A stretch of 64,000 nucleotides of DNA, from the NCBI GenBank assembly GCA_029959195.1, contig CP114120.1, positions 1,116,001-1,180,000 on the forward strand. Reading direction: 5' to 3'. Positions 3,001 through 38,658 of the stretch are shown here, piece by piece; position 1 is the first letter of the stretch, and every line of letters begins with the position of its first letter. Source of the stretch: Dictyophora rubrovolvata (lineage: Eukaryota; Basidiomycota; Agaricomycetes; Phallales; Phallaceae). The notes below the pieces were generated by a model. It made no database searches, was not told where the DNA came from, and worked only from the letters and a program-made list of their open reading frames with translations. The translations under genes and the position numbers were made by a program.

Positions 3001-3926
3001 TCCCGATAATCTGGATGGTATTCCCTTATAGTTAAGTAATGAAGGTACACGTGTGTGGAGTGGTCAGCAAGTACAATCCTTCAACGCCAATGGTATGTCT
3101 CTTTTTTTTTCTTCTGCTATCATAGCCTGGTCATGGACATGCCCTTTCAGCTGTTCTTTGGGGGGCTCTGGGAAAAGAGATTTGTACGTCATAATGCTGA
3201 CTTCGGTAATACAAGCATTATCAATTCTTGAACAGATGGTCCACACGGTCCATATTTCCTTGTTCCACTCGGAATCGTGATTGGGTTGGTTCTCCCTGTT
3301 ATCCCATGGCTGCTATACAGAAAGTTTGGATGGAGGTGGCTTCCTTATCTTAATACCGCCTTTATTGCACGTATGTGAAAAATATTCTATTGATAAAAGT
3401 GTAGCATGCTTAGGTCAACCTTCTAGTCAACCTTGGCGACCTTGCTGGTGGAACCAATGGCTATATTAATACGTGGATGTCGATTGGATTGTTCTCGCAC
3501 TTCTATATTCGAAAATACCATGCGGGGTGGTTTAGGAAGTACAATGTGAGTATCGCTCACACTTTATCCCCAGAGTCAATTTCAATATCAGGGTTATGTA
3601 GTATCTTTTGGGAGCGGGAATTGACGGTGGCGCCCAAATCTTCGTTTTCATATTTTCAGTGAGTTGAAGCATTCACTCGATGGTGCGTTTTTTTAAGGCT
3701 AACACCTTAATAGTTTGCTCTCGCCGGAGCTGGAGGCGTCACAGTGCCATTTCCTCAGTAAATCAGATTCCCTTCGCTTAAGCTTTCAACTAGCTAATCT
3801 AGTTTACAGATGGGCTTTGAATCCTGTCGGGAACGCAGTGAGTACTTGGGACTTACTATTTATAGAACTGGAGTGATTGAATGTTTATTTTAGGATTATT
3901 GTACTATAACTGGTTCTGAGCAGTGA
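1..3926 (+). CDS. OPT-family oligopeptide transporter, 5' end outside the window
   Basis: Proton-coupled importer of small peptides (or related metal chelates) of the fungal OPT family, in the plasma membrane. About a dozen exons carry the family motifs in order: FRPQVITVSALFLQLLVY, NPGPFS then EHAAAQIMANTAAGAATA, TLLASQLVGYGFAGMFR, FLVYPTVMLYPQNLITV, NEGMGLLGFGLDW, LPWWALIIALVIAL, APGMNPLFQILG, and near the end NLGDLAGGTNGYINTWMSIG. The last exon (3894-3926) reads DYCTITGSEQ after NPVGNA, matching the usual NPxGNxDYC ending, so the stop at 3924-3926 is secure. The amino-terminal part, including the start codon, lies before base 1, and the exon edge around 36-64 is uncertain. I saw no disruption. 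It converges on the enoyl-CoA hydratase gene. Confidence 0.88.
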
Positions 3927-4154
3927 ACACTTGTGCGTTTAGTCTGTTTCGTGTGTATAAACCTGTATATTTTCACGAGTCACGTTATTACGTACATAAA
4001 TAGGTTCTAAAGCTTGCGATGGATATATATATAAACATATAAAGTTACATTGAAAACATGCCCTAAGAAAAACCCAAATGTACCACGAAGCAGTGCACAT
4101 GTGTGCCATTGAAAATGTCTCGATTACATACACTGAACCGATAACCATCCCAAA

Positions 4155-5510
4155 TCATAGCATGGGTTTTACCAAGCCCAAGCTTTGTGCCTGTAGTTGT
4201 TGTAGACGCTTGCGATTCTCATCCTCGGCCTTGATCAAAGGCGGATTGACTTTCTGTTCCAGAGCGAATGTAAAAGCATGAAGCAAGCGTTGCTACAGGG
4301 GGAAAAAAAAAATCACTGTTTGTTCACTTCGAATGCTACATCCAAAAGATGAGAACCTTGACGAGACCATATACACCCGTTCGAGCGTCTTGACATCGCT
4401 CTCTCGCCAGGGAAATGGATGCTTGCAGAACTAGGCGACTTCTCCATCCTGAAAGTGGAGTGCTAAAGTTGGAGGGGGAAGTATTCGCGGTTGAGACAAC
4501 TACGTCAACAGCACCCTCTGTTGATAACTCTTGAGGAGTAAATCTATGACCTTGGAGCATCAACTTTCGAATGAATATCGTGGATCTGAAGGAGGAGCGG
4601 AGGAACAGTGCGGTTAATAAAGGAAAATCGGAGCCGAAATGGACCTGGGTGAGTGTCATAAAGGGGAAAAAGAGTGGGGAGGATGGAAATTTCCATGCAT
4701 ACTTCGTTCATACATGCCCACAGTTTCCAATCACCTATTACACGATAATCGCTGGCTATAGCGGTAATCCACCCGCCGGCAAAAGCATGTCCGTTGATGG
4801 AGGCGATGACGGGGACTATATGAAAACATTAGTATGATGAATGAACATGTTTTACGTTTTGATGTACTTGGAAATGTGGCCAAACGTTGGATCCAGGGAT
4901 GGAATACATCTGTCTTGAAGATAAACGACTGTTTCTTATGAAACTTTTTCGTGATGTAAACACACCAAGAAAAAAGCTTTCTTGAGAAGTGGCCTCGTAA
5001 AAATCCAAGCCTAAGACGATTATATAAACAACCAAGGCAAGGGAATAATAATAAACGGTGAGATGATCATTACCGTTACAAAAGTATTTATCTTGGCTCA
5101 AATTTCCCGTGATGATCAAAGCACCACTGCCGTCAAAATCATCCCGATTTGAATCGAAATCCAGCCGAGCACTATTATATTTCCAATTGGACTGGAGACT
5201 TGCATCACTTCCTGGAACAGCTTTCCGCGTTGATCCTCGTTTATGCGCGATCTCCCACTGCTTCCGCCACTCGAGTTCGACATAGTCAAGAGCGGGAAGA
5301 AAAGCCTTCTCGATCATGTAACGTGTTAACCTGTTGTCACTGCCGTTGTGCAGCTCCATAACCCATATCGATTGACTTGCCGCTTTTGAGTTTGAAATTA
5401 ATTCATCATTATTCATATCTTCTTAATGAGAAAGAATTAATAAAAATTAATAACTTACGAGTCGTGACTGTGATACAGGAATTGGCTTTCGAAGGAAACT
5501 CGACGGCCAT
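4155..5510 (-). CDS. Enoyl-CoA hydratase/isomerase family protein
   Basis: Crotonase-fold enzyme of the enoyl-CoA hydratase/isomerase family, probably in fatty-acid beta-oxidation. Exon 1 gives MAVEFPSKANSCITVTT, and an intron (gtaagtt...caaaag) joins in frame to PASQSIWVMELHNGSDNRLT. Then come GALIITGNLSQDKYFCNG, the oxyanion-hole region SINGHAFAGGW (about 4770-4800) and VHFGSDFPLL...LQGHRFTPQELSTEGAVDVV. The last exon (about 4155-4290) ends LIKAEDENRKRLQQLQ...KPML. The junction before this last exon is unclear (donor near GTATATGG or GTTCTC). An in-frame ATG about 75 bases upstream exists, but its extension spans a good 3' splice motif (ttccag), so the start at 5510 fits the family better. 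The C-terminus shows no obvious SKL peroxisome signal. Confidence 0.8.
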
Positions 5511-5922
5511 CTGGAAAGAAAAAGCGAAAAGATTCAACGCGTCATTGAAGTTGTTTCCCACAGTATTCTTCTGCATGGCGGCCATTCTCTTATGTAAGTC
5601 GGTCGACCCATTACCGAATGTTTAACGTTTAACGTTTAAAGCTTAAAACACTGTCAATGGCGACGTGACTAATAAGTCTATACTATATACATGTTTCCTA
5701 AATCATCCAACCGCGGTCTCGCTAACTTTTGCCGAGCTACTCATGAACTTTAAAGCAGGACACTAAACCCATTCGAGGCAATTGTACTTACTAAGTCTCC
5801 TGGAACAACTCTTGTGCTCAAAGCCTCGTCAAATCCAGCTTCCAGTCCCAAAGTTACTACACATGATACATCAATTCTGGTTGGTTCACCTATAATGGTT
5901 TGAAAAGTACCCACGACGTGTC
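5511..5922. other. Intergenic, short TTTAACG repeat
   Basis: This is the upstream region of the enoyl-CoA hydratase gene, running to the tRNA. Around 5619-5645 there are three tandem copies of a TTTAACG-like unit. I see no gene. The open frame on the minus strand here is antisense to the tRNA and carries no family motif. Confidence 0.5.
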
Positions 5923-23622: not shown

Positions 23623-26600
23623 TTACTCCCCATGATGAATGAAATCCCAACAGATTTTCCCTGGTTCAGTACCTAGCACCTCTTGAATTTGTTCAACCTT
23701 CATGGCACATAGTGCTTGGACATTAAAAACCCTTCCCATAACATATCGCACATTTTTGTCAGTCATACCCGGAAACGAATGTAATAGTTCTTCCGCCCCC
23801 GTATTCCAGTTGTTAGCCACGGACATTCCGTCTTCTCCACCCATCGCGGCAGCTTTGAATACATCGGGTTCATGGTTATTCAGTTTTAAGTCTTTGAATA
23901 TCTCGGCAGTTGCATATGGAGAGGATGACCAAATTATTCGTAGGCGCGGGAAAGACAAAGTCAACAAAACCAATTTAGATTGCACAGAAACAGTGGCTGA
24001 ACCACATCCCCGTGTGTTCTCAGTCTGCCTTTTTGAGGGATACTTTCCGTCCTCTTTTTTGAAGGATTTAACTTCCGAAACCGTCTGTAATGAGTTAGTT
24101 CGACCTGTTATTCTGCTTGAATCGAAGATATCCCCGCTAACCTTTAAGGAAAACGCTTTGTTTTCTTCAAACTCAATCAACAATATCGGCTGTTTATAAT
24201 GCAATGACATCAATTCACATTGTGTATATCTGGTTGTGTCATTGCAAGTGAGCCACTGAAAGAAAAAGAAAAAGAAAAAACAAAGCACTGACAGTCGGCC
24301 CGTGTTCAAGCTCGAAATAAGATCAGGAATACTTTTCCTTTCGACGCAGATATCAGGGGTAAGGATATAATCTCCAATTATCAGTGTTGCAGGAATTATT
24401 TTGATGTTAGTAGCATGTAGTAAATTCGGCAGAGTAGATCTGAACTCCCGCATATCAACAATGACCTGGTAGGCAGCATATAATTCAGTTATAGACTAAT
24501 CTAGGGAGAGGTTCTACCTGAGGAGTTTGCAACGTTGCTATTTTTCCACCACCGGCTATGCGAGTATTAAGGGCACGTAAGCGAACATCGGATGTCCGGT
24601 TTTCGTTCAAGATAGGCATGAGCATGCTCTACATTCAGTAAATTATAGGGCTTGTTATGTTGCAGAGAGAGAGAAACTATTACTCCACGCTCTCTGATCA
24701 AACGCTCAAAACTATCTTTTTCTCGACGCAAACCATATAAATACTTGTGCTCCTCACAGCTCATGGAGTAGAACATGAAGTAAATTCTAACGGCGAGTCC
24801 CGGATTAGAATTGCGGTACACCTGTTAAAGCGCTAGAAGATATGACCGGGGCAGGAAGACATTAAACTTACTTCAATTCGACGGATGAAGTCCTGATTAG
24901 GCTCGTATAAAATGACGAAACGCGGATTTATGTCAGCTAGTACGTCATCATCAGTATCGTCAGAATATGCTCTGATAACAACTGTCTGTTCTGGGAGTAG
25001 CAGTCCAAAGTGGGCATCGAACGTTGCTTCAGTGCGCTGTTTCGGACGAGGAGTCCATAAATCCCTAAGAGTAGATAGGCAAGTTTACTTATCCGAAAGG
25101 TTGCTTCGGACAATTGAATACAAACCCTTGTGGCGGGTCCATGGATATCTCAGCCTCCCCTGAAATGGCGTCCTGTGTCTGAGACTCCGCGCGTGAGCAA
25201 CTTCCTGGGGCACCCCCTCTAATGCGTCGACGTTTCACCGCTCTCTCCATCCTTTCCTTGTCTTTTTTCACCAACGCTTCGCTCAAGGCAGCCCGAGGCT
25301 TCTCCGGCGCCAAGGGAGCATCCTGTTTTAACGCGCTATTTGACTTTGTCGATTTCTCCATTTTATGAAGATACGATTTCCAACGCAGATATTCTTGTAA
25401 GCGATCCGTCAACATTCGGCGACCTTGTCTGTTTTTGGGTTCGGCTGGGTCTCGCAAATCGAGATAATCGCGCAAAACAGTACATGTGCGAGTAGACGAT
25501 GTCATTATTAGCACATTATTCGTTCCAACTTGGTCTGGACCCGACTGAATGAATAGGGAAAATGAGCTGTACTAATTAAAGAACGCACCGTGAAGTCCGG
25601 GATTATCGTTCATCAGCTGTTCAATTTCAGCCAATACGTCCACTAAAAGAGACCATTTTGGAGGTTCTTCCAGCACAGGTTCTATATTTTGGAGCTGATG
25701 ACTAGTAGACTGGGCACGAGTAGATGTTCTCTCTATTTCGTCTAGAACTTCCCATTCCGCCTCAAATCCATCGACACTTTGCTTTTCAGGCGACTTGTAA
25801 TTCTCAACATAACACCGTTGTTTTGCGACGCTAATAATCGTATGTGCTGCATCTGTTGTCAACCAGGGAGGCCGTTCAGTCTGACTAAATAGAGAATCTG
25901 AAGATGGTGTATAGGTGGCAACGATCGTTTCAAGATATGCGTAGAAATCTAAGGGATCGTAGGAAAGGAGGCACCTTTTGATATTGAACGATCGGGATAA
26001 AATATCGCTGACGGCTGCCAAAAGGTTCACCACTTACGATAACAATTTGCGTAAAACGCTAAGGTCGGCTACCAACCGCTTGGTGCGGGGACCGACTTTA
26101 TTCCATACTGGGTCCAGCTGATGCCGAACAGTTGCATCGAATGAGCGAAAGTAAACTCCTTTTATATCCAAATCCTCCAAATCGAGCTGCGAGGAGGGTT
26201 AAGCGTATATAAATACGAAACATGTATGAAAGGACCCTTACAGAGGTGTTGCTTCGTTTTAGATCATTGAGGGTAGTTGTCATGCATGCGATAATTGCTT
26301 CATGGATGTCTTGCATGGATGCAGACATGTTCTGTGATAGCTCTATCACATCTGCCTTTCGCTTCTCCAAAGAGCTTTGTATTTCCTCGTGGAATCTATT
26401 GAGATTGAACATGGAATGATCATAAATTCAAATAATCCGATGTCACCTGGGATATAGGTGTACTGTTCTTATCTACAGCAAGTTCGATTGTGAATGATAG
26501 GGAATTGTATTACGCATACCTGAAGCTCTTTAAGGATATTTCTGAGAGGGAACAAACCTGAGGTAATCTGTTCAGGCTGATCTGAAAATGCCTTTAAGAA

Positions 26601-31290: not shown

Positions 31291-33095
31291 TCAGCGTCCA
31301 TGTGTGTTCTCGCAAATGTGCTACATACATACAGTGCCTCGGTCAGCCTTTGATTTACGCAAATGGATAGATATATCACCCGACATTGTATCTTTCCGCG
31401 TGAGAACGGCTATGTCTCTGTGTCCGACATTCTCTTCCGTACCTGGAAAACGAAAATAAATTTCCGATAGTAAACCACAGATCACACTCGACCCTTTAAT
31501 CTCTCACTCACCAACAGTCAGGCCTGACCGATAATATATCTGCAAACAACAAATTCATCGCCAGTGGATATATCTTCATTGGAGTATAGCTCTTACTGTC
31601 TCCTCTGTCAAAGCTACGCTTTCTCTCTTCCCTCCACCACTCAAATAGCGTCGTATAGAGAATATTCATTACACAGGTACTGCAATACCTCGAGTCTCGC
31701 CCCCATAACCGGTCCGCTTCCGCATCGTTCAAGTCTTCTCGCGTTTGCTCCTGTTTGTGGTCAAACACTCCCGACAGAATATCTCTCATATCCAGAGGTC
31801 GACTTTCGATGTAGTTTTCAAATCTCGTCATTTCCTCAGCATTACTCTTGATTCCAGCGGGAAAGAAATTGACCAATGCCCGCGCGCTCATTAACGGAAG
31901 TTCGGCATCTGTGGACGTGATGCACAAAGATGCATTCGAAACACTTTCATGCATGACTTACTTGAACGCGGGACTAGCTTAATGCCCATAGGGCACCCTT
32001 GAGGGTCTACATTGCTGCAGAATATTCCACTGCATAACGTACCTGGAAAAAATATTCAGGCTCAAACACATCTGTATATGAGTAGACCACTGCGAACAAT
32101 GTATTCCATTGGGAAACCCATTTGGCACATAGTTGCTGCACCGTTCACACTGTTGATGGTCGGACACGCCCTGTCTTTTAAAAAAAAAGGAGTCAATAAA
32201 ATTACATAGAAAACGATATATGATTACAACTGACTTTCCAGTGATGGATGGATCATTTAAAGAGAGTTTCCTTTGGTATCTTTCCGGCGCAGTAGCTGTA
32301 GCTGGGTCTAATCCAACCGCTCGGATCTCCGCTGCACTGGGCAACGGAATCGGGTTCGGACAAACATATCCAGTTGGATTGTTTGCGTCACAGGTAATAC
32401 ATGGCCATAATAATAGACTTGCAACATTGGTCTCGACGCCTTCATCTTCGTCACTCATAACGTCGGACAAGTACTCATCCTCATCATTTTCGTCACCATA
32501 TCTCGCCGGAAAAATTTCTTCATTACTATGAGATGAAGTTTCCGGTGGCAGTGATAGATTCTTTCTTTTCTTGCTAAGATGTGTTATTATTGATTTGAGC
32601 TGAAACGCGGGTTTCGCTGACGTCGATCGAGATTTACAGGTTGGGCAAGTGGAGTGCCTAAACGGACGTGCGTCATTTGTTCGATGCTTCCTTTTTACTG
32701 AGAGAAGATTATAAACTTACCTTCTCCACCAGGAGGCCAAACATCCCTTATCAAATGAGTGTAAACATGGTATTACTACAGGTATTATAGTGTGGAGTGA
32801 ATTCAGACAGAACAGACGCGTGTGTGCACATACTTGTGTATGGTTCCGTCAGCGTGTTAAGACAAATTGCTAACGTATCATAATTTGAATATGTCATGGG
32901 AAAGTATCAAAGAACTATACACGTACTACAGATGAATTCTTCATCAATTGATTGCATACTCAATTGGGAATCAACTCCACCGCCTTCAAGATTATCTTCG
33001 CTTTTCGCCTCATCCGTTTCGCGCTTCCTCTTACCTCTGTCCGTGTCAGTAAGTTCCAATTCACTTCCGTGGCTAGAAGGGTCCCGGTCAGACAT
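31291..33095 (-). CDS. CHFR-like RING E3 ligase with C-terminal PBZ finger
   Basis: Predicted ubiquitin ligase with a poly(ADP-ribose)-binding zinc finger, as in CHFR, but without an FHA domain: the N-terminus is only an acidic/basic low-complexity stretch (MSDRDPSSHGSELELTDTDR). The RING is ICLNTLTEP, then VIPCLHSFDKGCLASWW and STCPTCK. A Ser/Asp/Glu-rich linker follows, then a cysteine-rich region (DHQQCERCSNYVPNG; CSNVDPQGCPMGIK) like that of CHFR. The last exons encode DCW, YGRECRTQRHSRSHAERYN and HICENTHGR, a complete PBZ pattern (C-x5-C, H, H). Joining the last two exons needs a rare GTCGGG donor (intron 31321-31384); without it the frame stops at 31376 and the last His is lost. It is head to head with a PARP gene. 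Confidence 0.8.
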
Positions 33096-33253
33096 CCGTA
33101 GGCAAAGAGATTTTAAGGGACTTGCACGTTTAGGGCGTTACGTAATTTAGGAATGGATGTTCGCTTGTTTGTTTGCAGTGAGAAGCCGCTATTATCGCAC
33201 CCTCGGGCCGACTTGAAAAAGTTTGAAGTTACTTAGTTAAACCGGACCAAAAA
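33096..33253. promoter_or_regulatory. Shared divergent promoter of RING-PBZ and PARP genes
   Basis: Only 158 bases separate the two ATGs, so both genes must draw on this region. No TATA box is obvious. It contains GTTTGTTTGC and a GC-rich stretch near 33190-33210. Confidence 0.6.
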
Positions 33254-36036
33254 ATGCCCCCAAAGTCAAGAAAACCCAGAAGTACTGGTTCCAGCACAGT
33301 TGCTGCTTCTTCAGCAGCATCCAAATCCACCAAACCCGCTTCTGCTGCAGCCGGTACTACTCGAAAGCGCGCACCTGATGCTTCAGATTCTGATGGCGAC
33401 AACAAACCTGCAGCCAAAAAGACAAAACAAGACACTCCAAAAGATCCCAAAATTGTAACAGTTCTGAAACAAACCTCCGTTCCCGTCGATCCGTTCTCAG
33501 GCTTTGTTTGTAAGCCTGATCTTCATTTGTTGCTGTCTAGTTCTGCAATAATCATGTCAACTCTCTTCTCTCATATAAGATACTCACAGAGTTTATGAAG
33601 ATCAAAGTGGGGCGTGGGATGCAATGCTGTTCGTTTTTATTTTGCTCTATCCGCATTGTGCTAAAATTTTATAATCGCATAATCAGTAACCAGACCGACA
33701 TCTCGGGAAAGACAAATAGCAACAAGTCCTATACATCTTCTACTTTACGCTATAACAAACTGATATGCACTTTTTTTTAGATTTTACGTTTTACAACTTT
33801 TACACACCGGGAATAATGACTACACTCTGTTCACTCGATGGGGTCGTGTTGGAGAAACTGGCGCTCACCAGGTAAAGGTGAAATTTTCACATTCAAACAT
33901 AGATAAACACTGTAATAATAGCCGATAGGGGCCATGGAGGGCCGCTTCAGTAGCTATCGACCAGTTCAAGAAACAATTCAAAAGTAAATCCGGTACTGAT
34001 TGGGAGAAACGCCATGGCATGGTCACAAAAAAAGGTAAATGCTTACAATTATGTGGTGACAGTAAACTAATAGGCTGTTTTTATAGGAAAATACGTGTTC
34101 ATAGGTATGGTATGCAACCCACGAGATTATGTCTATCTCAACTTCTATCAGAGCGGGATTTTGAAGACGACTCAAAGAACACAGCTGGTGGTCCCTCAAC
34201 TTCTGGAGAATCTAAAGAAAACACCCAAGTGCCCGATTCAATTTTGGCACCCGAAATACAGGCATGTATAACTTGTTTTAGTCACGATATACTTCTCATA
34301 TATTATTGAAGGAATTTTGCCAATTGATTTTTTCAACGAAGTCCGTTTGTCAGGTTACAACTTTCTTAATGACCTTGAATTGTTTTGGCTATAGGCTTCT
34401 TGATGCACATTTATCAGAAATGAATTATGATGCCAATAAACTGCCTTTAGGTGATTTATACCGATGCACGGGTCTGAACAACTAACATCCTTCTCTCCAG
34501 GAAAACTGGCCAAAGCTACCATTCTCAAAGGCTTCGAAGTGCTCAAGGTAACACTATAACTTTCATTATTACGTACACATATGTGTGTGTATATTGAGCC
34601 ACCTACTAACAGGAATTGGCGGAAGTAATTGAAGACCCTAATCCTGCCAAGTTTGCCCAAAACGGTGGAATCAATGAAGTCTGTGCGGATCTAAGTGGTC
34701 GATACTACTCGTGCGTTTTCAGTGCGCGATAACAATCACTTTCTAAACCAGTGAAATTCAGGTTGATTCCACACAATTTTGGGCGCACTCGTCCTACCAT
34801 CATAAATGACATGTCACTTTTGAAGCACGTACATACTGTTTTCATTTGTCTCTATGGCCACTGCATATCTAATTGTCCTACAGGAGTTGGAGGTTCTGGA
34901 TAACCTTGGGGAGATGGTGACTACAAATTCTCTTTTGAAAGGGAAAGAAGCTTGATTGCTGACGTGTATAAACTAGGAAGTTGCTCATAAAATTATTACT
35001 TCTACCTCGACAACAGATGAAGGCGGGAAAGTCGTCAACCCTCTTGACATGCACTTTAACTCTCTGGGACTGTCGCTGATGGAGCCTGTAGGACGTGGGT
35101 CCAAGGAATTTGACGTACTTCAGGCTTACGTTCATGATACACATGGACACACACATGACTGGTATAAAGTCAATGTTCAACATATCTTTCGAGTTGGCAG
35201 GTAGATATCTATCTCTGGTCTTTCCTTCCTTTTTTTGTATTGAAGAGTCTTTTTGTAGAGACGCTGAAAATCAGGCATTCGGCGAAGCAGGGTATGATAA
35301 ACTGGAGCCTGGTCAGCGTCTTTTATTATGGCACGGTTCTCGATCCACCAATTTTGCTGGTATTCTCAAACAAGGGTTGCGTATTGCCCCACCAGAAGCT
35401 CCTGTCACGGGGTATATGTTTGGAAAGGGCATCTACCTTGCGGATGTAAGCTACAAACAATTTCTTATCAGTTGCTCCAGCTTACACTGTTTCCAAGATG
35501 ATGTCAAAGTCTGCTAATTATTGCTATGCACAGTGCGTGAAAATGTTGGTTCGTACGAACACCATCTAATTTATAATCTATTAATCAGTTTGAGTAATGG
35601 AACTGGCATATTGCTCCTTTGCGAGGCGGCCGTTAAACCCTTTAATGAACTTGAAAATGCTCTCTATGACGCCGATCAAGAGTGCAAAAAACATAACACC
35701 CTGTAAGTTATCGAGAAACGTTTTTGTACTATTTTTTGATCTGTAAACAAAAAAAAACACAGAGCTACAAAAGGTGTAGGAAGGTTCCAGCCTGTTGATT
35801 GGCAAGATGCAGCCGCTGCTTTAGGCCGCTCCGAATTATCAGGAGTTAGCATGCCAGAAGGAAGGGGAAGCGATGTCAATCAGGCTGGCCTTAATCTGCA
35901 GTACAACGAGGTAGTTTCAATCTTTCAATGCCGGCTTTTTCTTTCTCTGATTTGTTTATAGTACATCGTTTACTCCATTTCGCAAATACGCCTACGGTAT
36001 CTTCTTATGGTAAAAATGGGCAGAGATGCTTTCTAA
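33254..36036 (+). CDS. Poly(ADP-ribose) polymerase, WGR-PRD-catalytic (PARP2/3 type)
   Basis: Nuclear enzyme that transfers ADP-ribose from NAD+ to proteins at DNA breaks. The N-terminus is basic, disordered and Ser/Ala-rich ([23 protein letters not shown]-like [10 protein letters not shown]). The WGR domain includes [29 protein letters not shown] and [20 protein letters not shown]. The regulatory helical domain holds [38 protein letters not shown] and [11 protein letters not shown]. The catalytic domain has the H-Y-E triad: [16 protein letters not shown] (His), [10 protein letters not shown] (Tyr) and [20 protein letters not shown] (Glu, near 35920-35980). It ends MGRDAF at 36034-36036. Zinc fingers and BRCT are absent, so break recognition would rest on the WGR domain. 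There are about 12 introns. It is divergent from a PBZ-containing ligase. Confidence 0.92.
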
Positions 36037-36333: not shown

Positions 36334-37818
36334 CTATTTCTTCGGAGGCTTCTTCTTTACTTCTTCCTCTTTGCAAGGGTGAAGCATGATCTTATTAGCG
36401 GTCCCTGGGACATTGCCACTGTAACCCTAAAAAGTATCAAATAATATACATCAGAGATAACAGATCATACGAGTAGATATGTTTTACTGACTTTGCTCCA
36501 GTCGTAATTAACTGCATAGGCAAAAATTGTTCCTGCCTGATTAAAGGCCGTGCAAGAGATGGGAGCGGGAGCGGGGTCGAAAACTAAGTTGAATGTTTAT
36601 GAGTGTCTCAATGATGAAAGCAAATCAATAGAATTAGGCTTGCTTTTTAATCTTGTTCGGCTATCTTTGTCCCAGAAGTTTAACGAGCCGTCAGAACCTG
36701 CAGTGCTAAATGTCCCCTGTTGTTGGTGGAAACTAAAGACAACAGCTTAAGTTGACTTTGATGGAATGGCTGGGCAGTTTAAGTACCTGATATCATTGAC
36801 TGCAAAAACAAGTGTGTGGCTCTTATTCTGGGCAGATTGATCTCTCCTATGGCATTTGAAAGAGAAGTTTTCGGACCTGAGAATTGGTTTGTCTTATATG
36901 AGGGAAAACGTGGCTTCGAGGTGGAGTAGCTCGACTTACGAGCTCGCCTTTTCGTCGACATATGTGATAGCGACCCGACCTTCTATGCTTCCTATGGCAA
37001 AACCGTCTGCGGCGGGAAAGCAAGCGACAACGCGGGTCTGCATTCTGAGGGTCGACTCTAATGACTAGCAAGAGTGAATACTGAAAGAGGGGGGTACATG
37101 TTGACAACGGAAGTGCTCACCTTGAATACTTTGCCTGGTTCTTGCAGGTTGTATATGTTAATTTTTCTGTCGGCGCACCCGGCCACAAGCAAAGGGAAAG
37201 CCACATCCATCGTATAGCACCTTTCAGGTAGGGTATTAGTAATCACAGGATTCGGTGTTCGGAGATCCCAAAACTAGAGACGAATGCGATGCGTAAGAAG
37301 AGAATGAAAGGATCGAGTATGTTCCGACCTTTAGAGTTTTATCCCAACTACCTGTGGCAAGAATGCCGTTTTGCGCGTCAATCCATTTTACAGACTTAAT
37401 TGGCGCGTCATGCGCGGCGACTTGAGTGGTTTGACCCGTCTGAACGTCGAACATACGAGCGGCTTTGTCTGCACCTCCAGATATCACTTTTGTTCCATCT
37501 TTGCTCCAACAAACACTCAACACGGGTCCTTCGTGGCTAAACATGGCTTTCCCCTAAAAATCGATACGGTAAGAGATTTGGCGAGCACAAAAGAAATAAT
37601 ATGGTCGTACTCACCTGCGTCTGCCCACCGGGAGAGACTTCGTAGATCCTGACATTATTGTCCCAGCTTGCAGCTGCTAAAAAGTCTGCTTGGGGACTCC
37701 ATGCGAGACTAGAAACAGAGTCTGGAGGCGAATCCGAAACTTCGATGTCTTTGGCGGCGGGGGTTGCAGTTGAGGTATTCGTTACAGCGCTGGATGAGCC
37801 TGTGCTAAAGAAGGACAT
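36334..37818 (-). CDS. rae1: mRNA export factor Rae1/Gle2, WD40 protein
   Basis: Nuclear-pore-associated beta-propeller that binds the GLEBS motif of Nup98-type nucleoporins and supports mRNA export. It starts [20 protein letters not shown], then [60 protein letters not shown] with [27 protein letters not shown], and [20 protein letters not shown] with EGRVAI. The downstream YNFSFKCHR block, then [20 protein letters not shown] and [17 protein letters not shown] are the most diagnostic parts. The lysine-rich end [11 protein letters not shown] stops at 36334. Domain order, length and ending match Rae1 throughout. The start at 37818 is the first ATG before the conserved Gly/Ser-rich N-terminus. 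It is tail to tail with the PARP gene. Confidence 0.93.
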
Positions 37819-38658
37819 GTGGGAGCAGGTATAGCTGGTGACACGTGACACGCGACAGTCACGTTCATGTCGTTGTGCTCTTGTGCTCCCCAATGGTCAA
37901 CCAACTCCCTTGATACGGAATAATGTATCTCCTGGATGCAGGGGCTCGTATAGTTTATCCGGAAAACCTTGGGAATAAAAATCCTTTGGAAAGCTGCGGT
38001 CTGAGTCCATATATACATGATATTACATGTACGTATATGAATGTATTACGAAGAGACTGTCTGCTGACCTTGGAGTGCATCGATTTCTGCCCTGTCTCTT
38101 CTGTTTGTGCAGGTCATTCGATCATCCCGTAATCTACTTGTCGTCTTCGTCATCTCACGTGCCAGAAAAATATCACTTTTTCAGACCGAATCCGTCATGC
38201 GCCCATCAAAAATTCCAATTGTCTATCGTTCTGCAGCTGATCATCGGTCATTTTCAATTCACTGCACCGGTGTTCCCTCATTGACCGCGTGCTAGGCACG
38301 GTGCGAAGATTGTTGGGCCCAGCGATTATGCGCAAGGCATCGTAGCTCCTCTGTTCTTTTTCTGGAAACACATACCTAGCCTAAAAGTCCTCGACCCTTC
38401 ATTCTTTCCATTTTTGACTCTCTACCGTGTCAACGTTCCAAAGCCACTTTTCCACCATGTCTCTCGAATATCTCAAGTCCTGGTATGCTGACCACCTGAT
38501 TCATCCCCTTTCACACTTTTTCCATATTTCGAAGCAAACTTCTTCCTCCGAAATATTCTCACCGAGGCTCCGCAGATCCATATGCTTTTTCTAAATAAAT
38601 ACCGACTTTTGCATGCTTCTGCAGCTATCCCCTCCGACCTCTTCGTGTCAATCGAACA
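37819..38658. other. Divergent intergenic region, rae1 and xylanase
   Basis: This 840-base region carries both promoters. Near 38456 a well-placed ATG (CACCATGTCTCTC) followed by a GTATGC donor could be an upstream non-coding or short coding exon of the xylanase transcript. No other gene is seen. Confidence 0.45.

Follow-up and report, generated by a model that had tools for sequence, protein, structure and literature searches.

A divergent gene pair in Dictyophora rubrovolvata encoding a PARP2-type PARP and a CHFR-like ubiquitin ligase: a candidate poly(ADP-ribose) writer and reader

The gene pair at the locus

The DNA analysed here is a 64-kb stretch of contig CP114120.1 (positions 1,116,001 to 1,180,000; the window) from the basidiomycete Dictyophora rubrovolvata. 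The contig, called C4 below, is one of 11 in a genome of 28.24 Mb. Two genes start head to head in the window: a PARP gene on the forward strand and, on the reverse strand, a ubiquitin ligase gene resembling CHFR (Table 1). Splicing by hand gave two complete reading frames, their ends falling exactly on the coordinates of the initial annotation of this DNA, and confirmed its claim that a PARP gene and a RING-PBZ gene begin 158 bases apart on opposite strands. The 26 introns of the pair (18 in the PARP gene, 8 in the ligase gene) are 47-70 bases long, 25 with GT-AG borders and one with GC-AG. The identities of both genes are solid. We give about an even chance to the reading that they encode a writer of poly(ADP-ribose) (PAR) and a CHFR-type ligase that reads it, transcribed divergently from one short region.

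Table 1. Features of the gene pair, with the separate FHA-RING gene of the genome (window coordinates unless a contig is named)
Feature	Position	Strand	Basis or remark
FHA-less CHFR-like ubiquitin ligase gene, 9 exons, 441 amino acids	31291..33095	-	splicing, Pfam
PBZ finger RPDC-x5-C-x8-H-x5-H, residues 409-433, exons 7-9	31318..31525	-	splicing, CHFR alignment
Intron 8, within the PBZ finger	31321..31384	-	if retained, frame ends YNVG-stop and H433 is lost
zf-CRD (CHFR cysteine-rich domain), residues 233-371	31637..32161	-	Pfam
RING domain, residues 56-95, Asp as fifth metal position	32633..32930	-	Pfam
Intergenic region, candidate shared promoter	33096..33253		158 bases between start codons
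PARP gene, PARP2-type, 19 exons, 593 amino acids	33254..36036	+	splicing, Pfam, PDB, genome search
WGR domain, residues 98-173, several exons	33615..34012	+	Pfam
PARP regulatory (helical) domain, residues 216-360	34238..35057	+	Pfam
PARP catalytic domain, residues 375-588, H433/Y467/E569	35100..36018	+	Pfam
FHA-RING gene of Dma type (L015)	C4:247387-247512		RING about 400-500 bases downstream, same strand

The PARP protein consists of a basic N-terminal tail followed by the WGR, PARP_reg and catalytic PARP domains (65.3, 144.7 and 192.7 bits in Pfam, all over cut-off), and nothing further was matched in its 593 residues at E values up to 1. Its best match in the PDB was PARP2 (E 1.4e-95), with which it shares the tail, all three domains and the H-Y-E triad, and which aligned over residues 6-587, nearly its full length, with several short insertions of up to 7 residues. 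The predicted catalytic triad is intact, bearing out what was first annotated, and we take it to correspond to H862, Y896 and E988 of PARP1. A PARP1-type identity was rejected, as neither the N-terminal zinc fingers nor the BRCT domain was matched in Pfam at E up to 1. The initial annotation had noted the missing zinc fingers, which stands, and had seen in them a sign of a minimal writer/reader pair. PARP2, however, is the closest solved protein over nearly the whole length, so a PARP lacking zinc fingers simply has the usual PARP2 layout and is no peculiarity. Only one catalytic match at E <= 0.001 was found in the genome (three candidates scored); genome profile searches were run exon by exon, and the count of PARP genes is a lower bound.

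In the ligase, a RING domain (four RING-type Pfam models over cut-off, 26.8-36.1 bits) is followed by the cysteine-rich domain of CHFR (PF17979, 46.2 bits against a cut-off of 26.3) and then by a PBZ finger. The protein had been described as a RING protein with a C-terminal PBZ; both domains were found, but that description omitted the CHFR-type domain between them. It had also been said to lack the FHA domain of CHFR, and indeed Pfam, taken up to E 1, matched no FHA in the 441 residues. Only 158 bases separate its start codon from that of the PARP gene, so little room is left upstream for an FHA domain. Judged by its predicted domains, the ligase is CHFR minus FHA, with the order RING-CRD-PBZ. 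The zf-CRD search of the genome returned a single candidate, the window ligase's own exon (21.1 bits when scored exon-wise, under the cut-off). A second copy of the ligase was not found in the genome, as the nine matches of the whole-protein search comprised six of its own exons and three weak ones on the RING region (E 0.005-0.013). Many basidiomycete proteins are annotated with zf-CRD in public databases.

Direct comparison with CHFR gives the finger strong support. The last 41 residues of the ligase aligned to the CHFR PBZ (PDB 2xoc) with a local score of 104 (z 19.9), and none of 500 shuffles scored as high (mean 21.3, standard deviation 4.2). The C-terminal PBZ proposed at first is borne out by this score, though it falls under the Pfam cut-off. 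A phmmer search of the PDB matched CHFR chains 2xoc and 2xp0 at E 5e-6 to 1e-5; these ranked after 17 RING chains when the whole ligase was the query and were the top two of five matches when the part after the RING was used. The CHFR, PARP2 and XPF chains matched in this study are presumably human. The motif RPDC..GR.CRTQ...HA...NHICE.T is almost letter for letter that of CHFR, and the four putative zinc ligands (C412, C418, H427 and H433) are all present after splicing. The last exon of the ligase opens with the codon for H433, so the finger is complete only once intron 8 is removed. Removal yields YNHICENTHGR in frame, parallel to FNHICEQTR of CHFR.

The 158 bases between the start codons presumably hold the core promoters of both genes. 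An TTACGTAA palindrome lies there at 33138-33145. It occurs three times in the window against 0.87 expected, and three was reached in 4 of 100 shuffles; the count, a post hoc one, is weak evidence for anything and a lead only.

On either side of the pair lie further genes. An exon of an XPF-type repair endonuclease was found at 23626-24495 on the reverse strand, some 7 kb away from the ligase gene; its ERCC4 domain scored 82.9 bits, and its best match in the PDB was XPF (E 7e-50). Downstream of the PARP gene and on the opposite strand, WD40 exons occupy 37239-37896; for one of them the best PDB matches were, in order, DAW1, a G-beta construct and an mRNA export factor, the last of which we take to be Rae1.

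Related genes elsewhere in the genome

The genome also encodes a microbial-type PARG on contig C2 (E 2e-37). Its sequence GGGFLAGAQAQEE reads GGG-x7-QEE and fits the microbial PARG signature GGG-X6-8-QEE quoted in PMC4245714. With this eraser a complete PAR cycle is plausible. Macrodomain exons were found at one place on the same contig, with three matches inside 500 bases. Canonical PARG and HPF1 gave no match in the genome, but neither did any control genome match, so their absence remains unproven. The ARH (ADP-ribosyl-glycohydrolase) family likewise gave no match, with 5 of 14 controls positive, a negative limited by the exon-by-exon search. Two weak PBZ matches in the genome (E 0.18 and 0.22) were under the cut-off, with unconvincing translations; the search cannot prove that other PBZ fingers are absent, because the window's own intron-split finger escaped it.

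FHA matches numbered 11, and a RING motif was present at one of the 11 loci scanned, the Dma-type gene L015; a scan of this kind overlooks any RING interrupted by introns. Two adjacent matches (L014 and L018) are probably one gene. Another two (L009 and L010, about 35 kb apart on contig C10) are inverted, near-identical copies carrying an FHA gene, 97.5% identical over 1947 bases, which reflect either a recent inverted duplication or an assembly effect. For other families, the genome gave 17 Zn_clus matches, all 17 over cut-off, and 30 hydrophobin matches, 28 over cut-off (exons counted, not genes). Together with the short introns of both window genes, these matches mark the genome as fungal.

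The existence of a separate FHA-RING gene distributes the two halves of animal CHFR, FHA and PBZ, over two genes here. It also bears on the proposal that the window ligase is itself a member of the Dma/RNF8 group of FHA-RING ligases, its FHA lost or not shown. In fungi, the relatives of CHFR are usually FHA-RING ligases, and the window protein is a RING ligase; however, the genome has its own Dma-type gene and the window ligase carries zf-CRD and PBZ, and we regard such membership as very improbable.

The writer/reader reading and its alternatives

Under the writer/reader reading, the WGR domain would activate the PARP at DNA breaks, leading to poly(ADP-ribosyl)ation of the PARP itself and of chromatin. 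The ligase PBZ would dock on this PAR and bring the RING and its ubiquitin-conjugating enzyme (E2) to the break. Attracted by the PAR that its neighbour makes, the ligase would then, by analogy with CHFR, ubiquitinate the modified PARP, causing its release or degradation and ending the signal, and may do the same to chromatin proteins in the vicinity, as has been reported for the human ligase. The microbial-type PARG on contig C2 would erase the PAR, and the divergent layout would let writer and reader be produced together. We put this module forward as a testable hypothesis built on domains, residues and gene order, a candidate compact counterpart of a human signalling pair. A bolder version, which we find rather doubtful, holds that animal CHFR corresponds here to a phosphate-reading FHA-RING protein and a PAR-reading RING-CRD-PBZ protein, and that the latter shares a divergent promoter with the only PARP to form a self-limiting PAR-to-ubiquitin circuit; keeping intron 8 in the transcript could then turn the reader off.

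Several observations pull the other way, some in the ligase, some at the locus and one in human cells. In the ligase RING, the fifth metal position is Asp (in PCLHSFDKGC) in place of Cys; Asp is capable of zinc binding. The CRD compared alone with that of CHFR scored no better pairwise than 28 of 500 shuffles, and the joined CRD-PBZ region scored the same as the PBZ alone. As the pairwise score is within the range of shuffles, the CRD assignment rests on the Pfam profile together with three CxxC pairs, which line up with those of the CHFR CRD in a global alignment. The finger reached 19.9 bits in Pfam against a cut-off of 22.7 (E 7e-4), its Cys-His loop exceeds that of CHFR by one residue, and the donor of intron 8, GTCGGG, is not a textbook one.

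These features of the finger allow that it is a degenerate PBZ which, through its longer loop or a retained intron, binds neither zinc nor PAR, leaving an ordinary RING ligase. The low Pfam score would fit, as would the position of intron 8 within the finger, where retention costs H433. On the other side, the spliced last exon supplies HICENTH in frame and in the right place, against HICEQTR of CHFR, and the four putative ligands are kept, as are the R, the G and the aromatic residues in the PBZ consensus published in PMC4030884. A degenerate finger is improbable in our view.

At the locus, the adjacency of the two genes is known from one genome. Four scans of genome- and viral-contig collections yielded no fungal relative. 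The ligase protein fitted 28 stretches by pattern in the genome contigs and the PARP protein two in the viral contigs, none of them confirmed. The PARP core gave 173 stretches in the genome contigs with one confirmed (L020) and 59 in the viral contigs with three confirmed (L021-L023). When both window proteins were compared by tblastn with these four sequences (about 10 kb each), PARP was found in all four and the ligase had no convincing match (best E 6.2, in L020). L020 carries a WGR-PARP-like gene at 3648-5623 on a contig filed as a Verrucomicrobiaceae metagenome-assembled genome; the breaks in its PARP match resemble introns, making eukaryotic contamination likely. In each of the three viral contigs, a PARP catalytic block at 4953-5150 aligns with the window PARP over 66 residues at about 45% identity.

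Divergent neighbours are also frequent in compact genomes, and adjacency does not prove co-regulation. The identities may therefore be right and the neighbourhood accidental, with the ligase reading chromatin PAR or serving a mitotic checkpoint and having no tie to the PARP gene, an alternative that is quite possible, at somewhat less than an even chance. Besides resting on a single genome, the adjacency has no counterpart in the eraser genes (PARG and macrodomain), which are on contig C2, indicating that PAR genes are not generally clustered; and further divergent pairs must presumably exist in so compact a genome. By contrast, the genome searches found a single PARP and a single zf-CRD gene, and these two are immediate neighbours. 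For two named unique genes among about 9,000 (an assumed number, at roughly one gene per 3 kb), we estimate the chance of being divergent neighbours at about 5e-5. This figure is suggestive only: since many other pairs would have drawn attention, a few linked divergent pairs are expected genome-wide by chance. The adjacency is a hint of a functional link, not proof of one.

Comparison with known systems

Human CHFR binds poly(ADP-ribosyl)ated PARP1 through its PBZ and its knockdown raises PARP1, whilst loss of the PBZ exposes CHFR to self-ubiquitination and self-degradation (PMC4741567). The last of the opposing observations comes from the same work, where a PARP inhibitor neither lowered the CHFR level nor broke its interaction with PARP1 (given there as 'not shown'; PMC4741567). 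The dependence on PAR is hence not simple even in human cells. The window ligase has the same order of RING, zf-CRD and C-terminal PBZ as human CHFR, but differs in having no FHA, an Asp in the RING, one more residue in the PBZ loop and an adjoining PARP gene. The fungal FHA-RING ligases Dma1 and Dma2 belong, like the window ligase, to the CHFR/RNF8/Dma circle of RING ligases. They have an FHA and neither CRD nor PBZ, whereas the window ligase has CRD and PBZ and no FHA.

PBZ fingers could not be found in fungi in a 2014 survey, according to its section 3.4 (PMC4245714). In 2023 one was reported in DNA ligase E of Mortierella verticillata (PMC10665377), and a fungal PBZ as such is accordingly no longer new. 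That finger also sits in a DNA-damage protein, but on a DNA ligase and not on a RING-CRD ubiquitin ligase. The finger described here could escape PBZ surveys, being split over three exons and under the Pfam cut-off. Searches of an open-access library turned up no account of a fungal ligase of CHFR type that carries a PBZ, nor of such a gene beside a PARP gene, although curated databases may hold such proteins.

Yeasts have no PARP, as stated in PMC4245714, so there is no simple yeast system in which to study the link from PAR to ubiquitin. In D. rubrovolvata, where a single PARP, a single CHFR-type reader and a PARG were found, each gene could be cleanly removed. Its gene content suggests that what animal CHFR combines, an FHA half and a PBZ half, can also occur apart.

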